From assembly GCF_007826885.1 (NCBI RefSeq), contig NZ_ML675586.1, positions 62,001 through 126,000 of the forward strand: 64,000 bases of DNA, in the 5' to 3' direction. Below are positions 42,882-53,924 of the stretch, in pieces. This DNA comes from Candidatus Nitrosocosmicus arcticus. Lineage in GTDB: Archaea > Thermoproteota > Nitrososphaeria > Nitrososphaerales > Nitrososphaeraceae. Made by a program: the position numbers and the translations under genes. Under the pieces are notes generated by a model. It did no database searches. It saw only the letters and a program-made list of their open reading frames with translations, and was not told where the DNA came from. Every line of letters starts with the position of its first letter. The first letter of the stretch is position 1.

Positions 42882-43640
42882 TTATTTATTATATTCATCA
42901 TGACGACGAACCCAGAATTGGGCATTTTCATGACCTGCCTCATCTCGACCCTTGGGAACCAGGTCAAGGTAGTTGTATGCTCCATTCAATATATCTATAC
43001 CGCGTGCATATGCTGAATAAGTGTGAAAAATATGACCCTCAGGGTTTTTATAAAATACACTGACGCCTGGCATCTCTGAAATACCTGTGTCCTGTATCAC
43101 GTAATTATAAAACGCGTTCTTCTTTACTACTTCCTCTTCTGTGAAAGACACATGATAGTCGAAATTAAAGTCATTATTATAAGAAGAGACCCAACTAAAA
43201 TCCCACCCCATCCGTTTATGGTATTCAGCTATTTTGTCATATGGTGTCCTCGATATAGCGATCATGCTCACATCTCTTTGATTCAGGTGTATAATTATTT
43301 TATTAAAATTATCAGCCCAAAATGAACAGCTTGGACATCCTGCATCCCAGCTTGGATCAAACATGAAATGATAGACTATAAGTTGACTTCTACCATCGAA
43401 AAGTAATGATAATGTTTCTTTCCCGTTTGACCCATCAAAAACATACTCTTTATCAACTCTAACCCAAGGTAAATCTCGTCTCTTTTGGCTAAGTTGGTCA
43501 CGTACAACGGTAAACTCTTTTTCTTTGGTTAGTAAATCTTTACGAGCTTTTATCCATTCATCTTGCTTAACAATAGTATGGTTTTTCGAGAGGTCTTTAT
43601 CTTTTTTTTCAGTTCTGTTTTCATGCTCATTTATGGACAT
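42882..43640 (-). CDS. DUF899 thioredoxin-like protein
   Basis: The protein has 252 residues. It matches DUF899: WIKARKDLLTKEKEFTVVRD, then RDLPWVRVDKEYVFDG, and the block SWDAGCPSCSFWADNF, where a CPSC pair sits in a thioredoxin-like fold, followed by ISRTPYDKIAEYHKRMGWDF. The C-terminal GAYNYLDLVPKGRDE is also typical. Function is unknown; a redox role is inferred from the CxxC. It is divergent from the ArsR/SRPBCC pair with 65 bp between the starts, an association I know from bacteria as well. Regulation by that ArsR through the palindrome at 43661 is likely. Confidence 0.85.
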   Translation of the reverse strand: MSINEHENRTEKKDKDLSKNHTIVKQDEWIKARKDLLTKEKEFTVVRDQLSQKRRDLPWVRVDKEYVFDGSNGKETLSLLFDGRSQLIVYHFMFDPSWDAGCPSCSFWADNFNKIIIHLNQRDVSMIAISRTPYDKIAEYHKRMGWDFSWVSSYNNDFNFDYHVSFTEEEVVKKNAFYNYVIQDTGISEMPGVSVFYKNPEGHIFHTYSAYARGIDILNGAYNYLDLVPKGRDEAGHENAQFWVRRHDEYNK

Positions 43641-43660
43641 TGGAAATAAATATAACCGCT

Positions 43661-43682
43661 GTTATTTAAATATTTAAATAAC
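43661..43682. promoter_or_regulatory. Perfect 22-bp palindrome, probable ArsR operator
   Basis: Half-site GTTATTTAAAT is followed directly by its exact reverse complement. It lies in the middle of the 65-bp spacer between the divergent DUF899 and ArsR starts and overlaps the likely TATA boxes of both. ArsR-type repressors bind such symmetrical sites, so control of both genes is expected. Confidence 0.65.
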
Positions 43683-43705
43683 TGTACAACTCATTTATTA
43701 TAGTA

Positions 43706-44038
43706 ATGGCGCCTTCGGTTTGGAAAGTACTATCTGAGGACAGTAGAAGACAAATATTACTACTGTTGAGAGAACGGGATATGTATCCAACTGAGATTGC
43801 CAAGTATTTTGATACTACATTGGCTGCAGTTTCTACTAATCTAAGAATTTTAAAGGATGCTGATTTGATACAAGAAACCAGAGAAGGGCAAAAAAAACGA
43901 TATTCAATTAATCCTAAAACTTCAATGGAAATAAAGGATTTTTTTGATAAGATGTGGGGTCATAGTCTCAATGATCTTAAGGAGTTTGTTGAGGAGACAA
44001 GTAACAAAGAAAAGAATCATGGAATTAGAAAGAAATGA
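43706..44038 (+). CDS. ArsR-family transcriptional regulator
   Basis: The protein has 110 residues with a winged helix of ArsR type: VWKVLSEDSRRQILLLLRER, MYPTEIAKYFDTTLAAVSTN (recognition helix region) and LRILKDADLIQETREGQKKR (wing). No metal-binding Cys cluster is visible, so it belongs to the group linked to SRPBCC partners. The stop overlaps the start of the next gene (ATGA at 44035). It probably represses its own operon and the divergent DUF899 gene through the palindrome at 43661. Confidence 0.85.
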   Translation: MAPSVWKVLSEDSRRQILLLLRERDMYPTEIAKYFDTTLAAVSTNLRILKDADLIQETREGQKKRYSINPKTSMEIKDFFDKMWGHSLNDLKEFVEETSNKEKNHGIRKK

Positions 44039-44478
44039 AAGAAAAAGATTATGATGCAATTAGAAAAGAAATAGTAATCAATGCCTCAGTAGATAAAGTA
44101 TATTCAGCTCTAATTGATCCCGAGCTATTAACTCAGTGGTTTCCCAACATAGCGACCATAGAACCATGGGCTGGAGGAAAAGTATTTTTTAGATTTTCAA
44201 AGGAGGTGACAAAAGAGAAAAAGGATCATGATGTTATTGGAACGATTATTAGCATCATACCAAATAAAGAACTTTCTTATACTTGGAACTTTACAACGAA
44301 ACCAGAATATAATAAAAATACTATTGTTACTTGGAAACTTGAACAGCTAGACAATGATAAAACGAAAATTACTTTAATTCATAGCGGCTTTACAAATGTA
44401 GATAGAATTCAATATGATGAACATAATGAGGGCTGGGATTGGTATACCAAAAGACTCGAGAATTTTGTTAGAGATTAG
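44035..44478 (+). CDS. SRPBCC / AHSA1-like ligand-binding protein
   Basis: The protein has 147 residues and the START-like AHSA1 pattern: IRKEIVINASVDKVYSALID, then ELLTQWFPNIATIEPWAGG, ELSYTWNF and the closing HNEGWDWYTKRLENF helix. It should bind a hydrophobic ligand or protein. The ATGA overlap with the ArsR gene implies coupled translation. The ArsR-AHSA1 pair is a known arrangement, and the divergent DUF899 gene is probably its functional partner. Confidence 0.85.
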   Translation: MKEKDYDAIRKEIVINASVDKVYSALIDPELLTQWFPNIATIEPWAGGKVFFRFSKEVTKEKKDHDVIGTIISIIPNKELSYTWNFTTKPEYNKNTIVTWKLEQLDNDKTKITLIHSGFTNVDRIQYDEHNEGWDWYTKRLENFVRD

Positions 44479-46910: not shown

Positions 46911-48662
46911 TTATATTTCGACCGGAGTACCATCAAACCTCGTAAATCTAATTGGCTTTGTAAAATTCTCGTTGTAAGTTAGTTTCTGTTCCTGTAATAT
47001 TCCAATTGATATTGTTTCGCCTAATCTCAATGAGTTCCAATAATCACTTCGATAGTGTACTCCTCCCCCATTCCTTCCTATTGCAACATTTGCAGCAAGT
47101 TTATTTAATTCTCCACCTAATGTAAGATGGTTTCTATCCGATCCTTCATAATTACGAAGCCCATTGCCGGAGTCATTTGCTTCTAAAGGATTCTCGATCT
47201 TAAATGTATCGTCAAACCATGCTTTCAGAATGGTTACACATGCTCCAGCTACCGTTGCATGACCTGCGCCATAGGAAGGATGTGCAGGTGATCCCTCTGG
47301 GAATGCTAGAGGAAGCAAATAGGTACCCCCAGTTTCCTCTCTATTTTCGTTTTGTTTCTCATTGTGTTTAAATACTTTCTGGAGAACGGATGAATTTAGT
47401 GCGTCTTGATGTATGGGTATTGGATAGTTGGCACTGTTAGTCTTCTTAATATGAATTAAACCTGCTATGGCTTCAGGTCTTAATCGACGGTATAAGAACC
47501 ATTTAGTATACCACACCGATTTCAAAGCCCTTGTTGCAACCTCACAAACTAAACTTAAGACATGAGGACCCCCAAATGTTCCAAAGCCATATTGAGTTTT
47601 AAATTGAGCAGTTGTGCTATCTTTGTAGGGGTTGCCTTGGTTCAGAATTTTGGCACCTACGTTGGCATCATCAGAAACTCTAAGTAAATACATACACGCT
47701 GAAAGATATGCTTGATACAATGCGTCATAATGTACGAAAGTCGCAAGATCTCTTAAATTACGCAAGAACTTGGGTTTGTTATCAAAGTAATTTAATGGAT
47801 CCCTATCATCATTCTTATACAGTGGACTAATGTCACGTTTTTCTCCTCGCTGTACAGAAATCCATGATTTATAATTTGTAACAAAGTCTCTACCAGGGAC
47901 TGCAACTACGTGTCTTTGGTCAATTGCACAAGTTCCGTACTTTATCCATCCATCGTTTTCGGCACGATCGAGAACGATGTCTTTGTTTCCTTTTAACATG
48001 AATTGTGAGATATAAGGGCCTATAAGATCACCTTCGGTTGATCCTCTAAAGATGCTCTTATCAGTAACTTTCCCGCCGATTTTGGGTCCGCGGAAATCAG
48101 ATAGATTGTTCAAATCATTTACTGCATCTTTTACTGTACTATTGTCATGATAATCAGAAAAGTCAACATCTCTAATTAGAGACATCCAGTATAATTCGAC
48201 GATTTCTCCAGCAGCTTCTGGTGAATTTAGCTTTGGCGGGGCTGCGAATTTATCATAGCTAGCACTATTTAATAGGTCCGTAGCTCCTTTCTTCAAGATC
48301 GCAACTGCATGACCATCTGGACCTTCCAGGTCATAAGCTAATCCCGATTGTGGATTAGTAAGCTTCTTGTTACCTCGACCATTAACAAACGACTGATCTA
48401 AAATGATATTTTGAAAGTCAACCGGATCTCCGCTTTGTATTGCCTTTAGAAAACTTTGGTATGCGGCTATATCTACTTCTCCCGAATCTTGATGAGGTAA
48501 ACTCTTGTGAAAATTGCCTATAAAATTGGGATAAGTTTGCTCTTCTTCGTTTGGTGGTCCGATTTGTAAGTCTTTACCAAAATGCGGTCTACTATTGGCA
48601 AGATTTGTTGCGTCATCTCTGATTTTTTTGGCATTATTTTTCCTTTGCATTGGATCGTTCAT
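46911..48662 (-). CDS. Vanadium-dependent haloperoxidase-like protein
   Basis: The protein has 583 residues, similar in length to algal bromoperoxidases. The vanadate-site residues line up with the Corallina enzyme: Lys387 and Arg395 in KWFLYRRLRPEA, His461, Gly467 and His468 in HPSYGAGHAT, and Arg530 and His536 in GRNGGGVHYRSD. The Ser that contacts vanadate in the algal enzyme is Ala466 here. Vanadate haloperoxidases oxidise halide with H2O2 and share their fold with PAP2 phosphatases, so phosphatase activity is the alternative. No signal peptide is visible. The gene is monocistronic. Confidence 0.85.
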   Translation of the reverse strand: MNDPMQRKNNAKKIRDDATNLANSRPHFGKDLQIGPPNEEEQTYPNFIGNFHKSLPHQDSGEVDIAAYQSFLKAIQSGDPVDFQNIILDQSFVNGRGNKKLTNPQSGLAYDLEGPDGHAVAILKKGATDLLNSASYDKFAAPPKLNSPEAAGEIVELYWMSLIRDVDFSDYHDNSTVKDAVNDLNNLSDFRGPKIGGKVTDKSIFRGSTEGDLIGPYISQFMLKGNKDIVLDRAENDGWIKYGTCAIDQRHVVAVPGRDFVTNYKSWISVQRGEKRDISPLYKNDDRDPLNYFDNKPKFLRNLRDLATFVHYDALYQAYLSACMYLLRVSDDANVGAKILNQGNPYKDSTTAQFKTQYGFGTFGGPHVLSLVCEVATRALKSVWYTKWFLYRRLRPEAIAGLIHIKKTNSANYPIPIHQDALNSSVLQKVFKHNEKQNENREETGGTYLLPLAFPEGSPAHPSYGAGHATVAGACVTILKAWFDDTFKIENPLEANDSGNGLRNYEGSDRNHLTLGGELNKLAANVAIGRNGGGVHYRSDYWNSLRLGETISIGILQEQKLTYNENFTKPIRFTRFDGTPVEI

Positions 48663-49017
48663 CTAAATTTTCTCCTTTTGATATTGGTTTATCATTGCAA
48701 TAACATACAATAACTAGTTTATAAGCTTTGTGCATTATTGGTGTAACTTGCCAATTTCGTGATAAGTTCCAATCTTGATGTTTTATCAATAATTAAAAAG
48801 AGGGATACAAATTTTACATATTCTGTTTTAAAGTATCAAACAAAGATAAAATTAATCAAAATCTTGTAGAAGTATTATTTTTGTATTTCAATTTCTTTTA
48901 AATCTTAATTACATATCCTGAATAGTTTTTTATTATACATATTGTTATAGAATAATTATAACTCCTTCTTCATTCTCAAACCTAATTATTAAATAGTACT
49001 GTACAGCATGCAATTGC
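48663..49017. other. Intergenic stretch between divergent genes
   Basis: These 355 bp separate the haloperoxidase and TPR genes. They must hold both promoters (A/T-rich stretches near 48710 and 48985) but no repeat copy or other distinctive structure. Confidence 0.3.
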
Positions 49018-50198: not shown

Positions 50199-50654
50199 TT
50201 AGCTTTGGGCTGCTACGTTGCCACCAGAGTTTTCTTGGTTTTGAACGTTAATGTTGTTACCAGAGCCTATTGTATCTCCACCAGAAACTACTTGGCTGTT
50301 TTGTTCAGAGGATTGAGATTGACTGATGCTTTGGTCTGCAGAGTTGCCACCATTGTGGTCGTCGTCGTCATCTTGTGCTAATGCGTTGTTACCTGTATTC
50401 TTTTGGTTTTGGAAGCTAACGTTATTGCATGATAGAAAAGTTGATCCTCCAGAAGCGCACAAGGCATTCTGAACTGATGCTTGTGATTGAGATATCGATT
50501 GCTCAGCTACGTTACCACCTTTGTTCTTCTTTTTGGTTGCAAAGGCGTCATCGACAGCCACTAAGGGGCCTGCAATCAATGCTAATGCGACCACTATTGC
50601 AATTGATGCGACAACGAGTTTGTTGTTTTTGTTGTGAATGTATGATTTATTCAT
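50199..50654 (-). CDS. Secreted curlin-like Gln/Asn/Ser repeat protein, paralogue 2
   Basis: From the ATG at 50654 (matching the start MNK of the paralogue at 6037) the protein has 151 residues. Signal peptide IAIVVALALIAGPLVAVDDA is followed by the same two blocks (EQSISQSQASVQNALCAS and DQSISQSQSSEQNSQVVSGG), an Asp/His linker and the end GGNVAAQS. The two paralogues share 80% or more of their residues by eye and the same upstream block. I infer an exported matrix or fibre protein. Confidence 0.7.
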   Translation of the reverse strand: MNKSYIHNKNNKLVVASIAIVVALALIAGPLVAVDDAFATKKKNKGGNVAEQSISQSQASVQNALCASGGSTFLSCNNVSFQNQKNTGNNALAQDDDDDHNGGNSADQSISQSQSSEQNSQVVSGGDTIGSGNNINVQNQENSGGNVAAQS

Positions 50655-50667
50655 ACCAGTCATACTA

Positions 50668-52997: not shown

Positions 52998-53924
52998 ATG
53001 GTAACTATGCTACCTCCGAGAGCCAAACTGATGTTGGCTTTGAGAGAACACAGAATGCATCATGTATTATGGCATACTGTAAGAGATAACTGGGAACGAG
53101 AAGTGTCAGGGCAACCAATGTTTAGCGATTCTGAAAAACAACGTATAAGGGATATGGGATGGGAGCCACCTAGGCCTTCTCTTAACAAAGATGGAGTTCG
53201 CATAGAGAATAACAAATCTGGCGAGGATTTTCTATTTATGCATAGACAAATGATATTACATGTAGATACCTTACTTTCAGAAATTGGAGATGCATCTTAT
53301 CCCAAGGTAGAGGGTTGGACGCACGTTCCCCCTCCAAATGATCCAGATTATCCTGTTCCTGTGTGGAATTCCGCTCCAGATTTCATTAAGCCTGCAAAAA
53401 CCGACAACTTCTACAGTAATAGAATGGTGCGTTGGGAAAATGACTATTCAACCCCAGAGTATCTCTCAGAGTTGACCCTCGGACAATTAGGGTCTCGACT
53501 GGAATACACAATTCATAACGCGATGCATCTGAGATGGGCTTCTGATCCAGGTGAAGAGAGGCCACTTGTTTTTCCTTCAAACGCTGATACTATTGAGACT
53601 AGATGGGATAACCCCTCCTATGACTATTTGGCTGATCCATATTCAAGTCATGTAAACTATATCTTCTGGAAGTTGCATGGGTGGATTGATGATAGGATAA
53701 ATGATTGGATGAGAGCACATGAAATTACAGGAGAGGTTCCATGGAGCGTAGAGTGGGATAAAAATATCATGCCCCAACATGGTTTAATTCATGAACCACA
53801 TTTAATGGCAAGAATGGGCGACGAGATGAAAGATACCATCAATAGGATGGAAGAGGTGGCAAAGATTGTGTCCAAAACCGATCTGATAACCCCATTTTCG
53901 GTAATAGATGATGGCATAGTGTGA
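52998..53924 (+). CDS. Tyrosinase-like di-copper protein
   Basis: The protein has 308 residues. The CuA-like region reads FLFMHRQMILHVDTLL (His82; tyrosinases have FLPWHR). The CuB region has IHNAMHLRW (His173, His177; usual HNxxH) and the final helix YIFWKLHGWIDDRINDW (His227; usual FxxHHxxxDRxW). The second CuA His, normally nine residues before the HR, is absent (Lys73), though a His cluster HRMHHVLWHTVRD at residues 18-26 may contribute. Tyrosinases oxidise phenols; here activity is uncertain. There is no signal peptide. A tyrosinase remnant lies at 44882. Confidence 0.6.
   Translation: MVTMLPPRAKLMLALREHRMHHVLWHTVRDNWEREVSGQPMFSDSEKQRIRDMGWEPPRPSLNKDGVRIENNKSGEDFLFMHRQMILHVDTLLSEIGDASYPKVEGWTHVPPPNDPDYPVPVWNSAPDFIKPAKTDNFYSNRMVRWENDYSTPEYLSELTLGQLGSRLEYTIHNAMHLRWASDPGEERPLVFPSNADTIETRWDNPSYDYLADPYSSHVNYIFWKLHGWIDDRINDWMRAHEITGEVPWSVEWDKNIMPQHGLIHEPHLMARMGDEMKDTINRMEEVAKIVSKTDLITPFSVIDDGIV

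Follow-up and report, generated by a model that had tools for sequence, protein, structure and literature searches.

Vanadium haloperoxidases and PAP2 phosphatases have a common fold and a common site. The solved structure closest to the protein described here is AmVHPO from Acaryochloris marina (PDB 5lpc), the wild type of which is active, brominating monochlorodimedone to 53% conversion and chlorinating it to 8% (PMC11871015). According to the same source, the residue at AmVHPO position 425 governs chlorination: the R425S replacement gives a chloroperoxidase, for whose chlorination Phe401 is required, replacement R397W or R397F increases chlorination by the Corallina pilulifera enzyme, and the chlorinating enzymes of Ascophyllum and Curvularia have a Trp there. 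Searching open-licence full texts, and not subscription papers, for haloperoxidase or vanadium together with archaea, we found no such enzyme in the soil ammonia-oxidising archaea among the matches listed, and the main text on Candidatus Nitrosocosmicus arcticus (PMC6657660) mentions neither vanadium, haloperoxidase nor peroxidase.

The window, i.e. the whole stretch of 64,000 nucleotides analysed here, belongs to a Ca. N. arcticus genome of 2,644,860 bases in 22 contigs that encodes an archaeal AmoA. As the preliminary description had proposed, this ammonia oxidiser carries an intact haloperoxidase-like gene (Table 1): the ORF starts with ATG, immediately preceded on its 5' side by a TAG codon, and encodes 583 amino acids without an internal stop. 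The protein has neither a signal peptide nor a hydrophobic N-terminal segment and, because no signal peptide was seen, it is probably located in the cytosol. A sigma-70 promoter scan gave 14 sites against 10.5 expected and is uninformative, the sigma-70 model being unsuited to archaea, and an AlphaFold model built from two sequences (P0001 and L010) had a mean pLDDT of 29.7.

A phmmer search of the PDB with an E limit of 1 recovered 11 different sequences, every one named as a haloperoxidase or bromoperoxidase. The best match was 5lpc (E 2e-105), accompanied by two AmVHPO variants, followed by 1qhb of Corallina officinalis (E 5.6e-100, spanning residues 37-583 of the window protein), which together with 1up8, 7qvw, 7qwi and 8vgx was assigned by scores and length to the red-algal Corallina kind; the others were 1qi9 of Ascophyllum nodosum (E 2.4e-56), 5aa6 and, weakly, 4cit (E 0.097). 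This similarity to solved haloperoxidases is far beyond chance. AmVHPO, whose deposited chain is longer (666 residues versus 583), is identical to the window protein at 242 of 527 aligned residues, and the Corallina enzyme at 240 of 528 aligned columns (45.5%), whereas the partial Ascophyllum sequence reaches 35.1% over 387 aligned columns. Acidobacteriota homologues (G696, G752 and others) reach up to 53.4%, the highest-identity single sequence being the acidobacterial L035. An NCBIfam search of the window protein returned no family. With its full-length homology to solved vanadium bromoperoxidases, its vanadate-site residues and its grouping with characterised enzymes in trees, the window protein, as judged from its sequence, adds a member to the vanadium bromoperoxidase family, and from an unexpected host, a soil ammonia-oxidising archaeon; the PDB matches, site residues and phylogeny all bear out the identity first suggested for it.

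The alignment and the DNA codons agree with the preliminary description that seven of eight named Corallina site residues are kept and that the eighth, Ser483, is replaced by Ala466. The axial His (H536), the Lys (K387), the two Arg (R395 and R530), the Gly (G467) and the acid-base His (H468) are thus all present. The spacing, said to be identical to that of Corallina, is so within the three motif blocks (8 from Lys to Arg; 6 and 7 from His to Gly and to the second His; 6 from Arg to His) but not between them, where the distance from Arg to His is 66 versus 72 and that from His to Arg 62 versus 60. Ascophyllum also keeps the Lys, Arg, His, Gly, His, Arg and His, with a Ser at the Ala466 position, while AmVHPO has all eight positions of the window protein, Ala included. 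Ala466 stands in place of the Ser that hydrogen-bonds vanadate, which we did not count as a defining feature, since active AmVHPO does without it. Among aligned homologues Ala occupies this position in all six archaeal proteins, 9/17 acidobacterial ones (the others having S in 4, T in 2, G in 1 and Q in 1; some acidobacterial homologues have lost a site residue), one of three from proteobacterial plasmids and one of three PDB rows. The replacement, which had been singled out as noteworthy, is native to an active enzyme and to most homologues examined, and is therefore hardly informative on whether function was lost; a lost or altered function on this ground was rejected, since active AmVHPO carries the Ala. 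The acid-base His itself is replaced by Ala or Leu in two plasmid homologues, from Microvirga (L012) and Polymorphobacter (L013), the latter being annotated as a vanadium-dependent haloperoxidase.

Table 1. Features of the haloperoxidase locus (positions in the window)
Feature	Position	Strand	Basis or remark
Vanadium-dependent haloperoxidase (bromoperoxidase-type) gene	46911..48662	-	ORF, PDB matches, site alignment
His536, predicted axial vanadate ligand (Corallina His551)	47055..47057	-	alignment, codon re-read
Arg530 (Corallina Arg545)	47073..47075	-	alignment, codon re-read from DNA
Gly467-His468 (Corallina Gly484-His485)	47259..47264	-	alignment, codons re-read from DNA
Ala466 (Corallina Ser483; AmVHPO Ala518, PMC11871015 numbering)	47265..47267	-	alignment, codon re-read
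His461 (Corallina His478)	47280..47282	-	alignment, codon re-read from DNA
Arg395 (Corallina Arg406)	47478..47480	-	alignment, codon re-read from DNA
Lys387 (Corallina Lys398)	47502..47504	-	alignment, codon re-read from DNA
Trp384, three residues before catalytic Lys	47511..47513	-	alignment, codon re-read; PMC11871015
Divergent intergenic region, 355 bases, A+T-rich, between haloperoxidase and membrane-TPR genes	48663..49017		
Membrane (3-4 segments) and TPR protein, 306 aa	49018..49938	+	conserved divergent neighbour

Three positions ahead of the catalytic Lys, the window protein differs from both of its closest characterised relatives: it has Trp384 in place of Arg425 of AmVHPO and Arg395 of Corallina, and Ascophyllum likewise has a Trp at this point. 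All six archaeal and all 17 acidobacterial aligned rows have Trp here. Phe401 of AmVHPO corresponds to Phe360 of the window protein, and Glu139, which aids chlorination in AmVHPO, to Thr102, which speaks against carrying the argument for chlorination straight over. Trp384 perhaps points to the use of chloride, a guess that can be tested.

At E up to 1e-10, homologues are present in 6/70 Nitrososphaeraceae genomes, distributed over three of 12 genera, and in three of 398 genomes from an even draw of the host phylum, all three Nitrososphaeraceae. The scan of genome contigs gave a single locus, L010. Of 297 genomes from the phylum to which the Chloracidobacterium genome G461 belongs, 13 have a homologue, and three of them (G461, G736 and G752) have three such genes apiece. 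Six plasmid records had a match, and no relative was found in viral contigs. One of the plasmid genes, L011 of a Pseudanabaena plasmid (NC_019690.1), is interrupted by an IS630-type transposase insertion, and another, L014 of a Rhizobium phaseoli plasmid, has AbiGi and Shedu defence genes nearby.

A phylogeny with bacterial homologues, which had been proposed as a check, groups the window protein with the characterised AmVHPO and Corallina bromoperoxidases. In a 29-row tree, which has long branches and a bootstrap that was not settled, the window protein pairs with that of G059 (98/93), and these two fall with three more archaeal proteins, AmVHPO and Corallina in a single supported set (99/99), with Ascophyllum 1qi9 outside it. 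A second tree was made to check this, dropping five rows as long-branched or partial (1qi9, L044, L012, L013 and L014), and the same set was recovered at 100/99. The sampling is lopsided, consisting of Acidobacteriota and a few plasmids, with AmVHPO as the sole cyanobacterial sequence and no phosphatase; the split Pseudanabaena copy L011, the two-piece G694 match (L045/L049), the G671 fragment L046, a second Rhizobium phaseoli plasmid, a short Rhizobium sullae match and all red-algal chains except 1qhb, 5aa6 and 4cit were omitted. A single origin of all six archaeal genes was rejected on the 29-row tree (AU test, p 0.0033), because the Tat-type L008 sits among acidobacterial sequences; one clade of the remaining five is borderline on the reduced tree (AU test, p 0.0508). 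The simplest reading of these sequences, unevenly sampled as they are, would be that the gene moved between soil bacteria and archaea more than once. L008, from G062, is the only one of the six archaeal homologues with a twin-arginine-type N-terminus; it occupies a separate region of the tree and has the motif HPAYPAGH.

Upstream of the haloperoxidase, the window carries a divergent gene whose product joins a TPR part to hydrophobic segments, three of them clear and a fourth possible. The full-length form, with both parts covered, is found in three of 70 family genomes (G000, G059 and G007) and in each of these it is divergent from an adjoining haloperoxidase gene; the chance of all three copies falling among the six carriers is 0.00037 if genomes are taken as independent, which they are not. 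The membrane part alone lies upstream of the haloperoxidase in G068 and is present too in the non-carriers G003, G021 and G013; the 9.1 kb of G067 and the 12 kb of G062 that were available around their haloperoxidase genes lack it. Pfam gave no family for the membrane part of the window's membrane-TPR protein and a weak DUF7475 match in two of four members (best E 0.00083). When the ORFs at 30000-64000 of the window were compared with the neighbourhoods collected for comparison, one distant membrane ORF was the sole match beyond the pair itself and a shadow ORF within the membrane-TPR gene, so the gene pair stays together in otherwise differing surroundings. The two proteins may be physical partners. 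Elsewhere around these loci, in G067 (L018) and G068 (L019) alike, the haloperoxidase gene is immediately followed by an ORF for an adhesin-like or repeat protein (337 and 234 aa). The window also encodes a tyrosinase-like, PvdP-related protein at 52998-53924 (+), about 4.3 kb from the haloperoxidase (PDB 6rrp, E 1.4e-38; NCBIfam PvdP model 173 bits, under the cut-off of 625), a DUF899 protein adjoining an ArsR-type regulator and an AHSA1-domain protein at 42882-44478, and, at 50199-50663 (-), a Q/S/N-rich repeat protein that looks secreted and matches no Pfam family.

Taken together, we consider it likely that the gene encodes a cytosolic vanadium haloperoxidase of the red-algal and cyanobacterial bromoperoxidase type, oxidising bromide or iodide with H2O2. 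Vanadate would be held by His536 as axial ligand, by Lys387, Arg395 and Arg530 and by the backbone of Gly467, with His468 as the predicted acid-base residue; H2O2 would then bind, bromide or iodide, and possibly chloride, would be oxidised to hypohalite, and this would halogenate or oxidise nearby molecules. The enzyme might be tied to the membrane via the divergently encoded membrane-TPR protein, and its role would most likely lie in oxidative or halide chemistry alongside the Mn-catalase, not in replacing it. That the protein binds vanadate and oxidises halides, which halides it takes, its place in the cytosol and its role in the cell are what we infer from the sequence. Speaking against the reading, hypohalite produced in the cytosol would do damage there, and the surroundings of the gene offer no pathway to explain its use.

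The main job of the enzyme could instead be the removal of H2O2, with halide as a recycled mediator, shielding ammonia oxidation. Haloperoxidases do consume H2O2, and H2O2 is described as enriching Nitrosocosmicus in PMC11656794. A Mn-catalase is nevertheless encoded in the same genome, in 27/70 family genomes and in five of the six carriers (G000, G007, G059, G067 and G068, not G062), and heme catalase in three of 70, one of them a carrier (G059); catalase activity was demonstrated in a related Nitrosocosmicus (PMC11656794). Removal of H2O2 is therefore unlikely to be the only use, and the patchy occurrence of the haloperoxidase gene in the family also speaks against it as the main one: we regard this as a rather unlikely reading, and the quenching of H2O2 put forward in the preliminary description loses weight as a main role. 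A substitute for catalase was rejected on the same occurrence of Mn-catalase in carriers.

The protein could also be a phosphatase, or another enzyme of this fold that transfers phosphoryl groups, and just resemble a haloperoxidase; this would fit the fold and site shared with PAP2 and a weak match to the Pfam PAP2 profile (PF01569; 16.5 bits against a gathering cut-off of 27.2, E 0.0074). We hold it to be very unlikely, as no phosphatase appears among the PDB matches at E up to 1, Lys387 and a full haloperoxidase-length N-terminal half are present, three separate canonical PAP2 genes exist in the genome, and the protein groups with characterised bromoperoxidases. The placement within a clade of phosphatases that the preliminary description had considered did not occur, in trees that contained no phosphatase sequences; it is on the PDB matches and on these trees, with that composition, that a phosphatase identity was rejected.

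Some bacterial vanadium enzymes are described as selective (PMC11871015), and the gene could likewise encode a tailoring halogenase for one specific metabolite. Pfam, however, recognised no biosynthetic cluster among eight neighbouring ORFs, and the sequence fits bromoperoxidases, selective bacterial chloroperoxidases not being recognised among the PDB matches, so that we give this possibility scant credence. A bacterial contaminant in the assembly is barely credible: the sequence with the highest identity to the protein is acidobacterial and the organism derives from an enrichment described as having bacterial contaminants (PMC6657660), but the gene is interior to a contig no shorter than 126 kb and the same-genus single-contig genome G007 has a homologue with the same divergent neighbour.

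Returning to the vanadium haloperoxidase, if it is active there would be hypohalite chemistry within an abundant group of soil nitrifiers, and a candidate archaeal input to soil organohalogens. It is conceivable, though quite improbable, that some soil ammonia-oxidising archaea hold a lineage that includes the closest sampled prokaryotic kin of the red-algal enzymes and that, with its chlorination-linked Trp and a dedicated membrane-TPR partner, would produce hypohalite at the inner membrane face and add to soil organochlorine and organobromine. A testable halide-preference residue, Trp384, and an intriguing membrane-TPR neighbour mark this member of the family, and natural enzymes that combine Ala at the Ser site with a Trp tied to chlorination would be a useful test of the determinants of halide preference.
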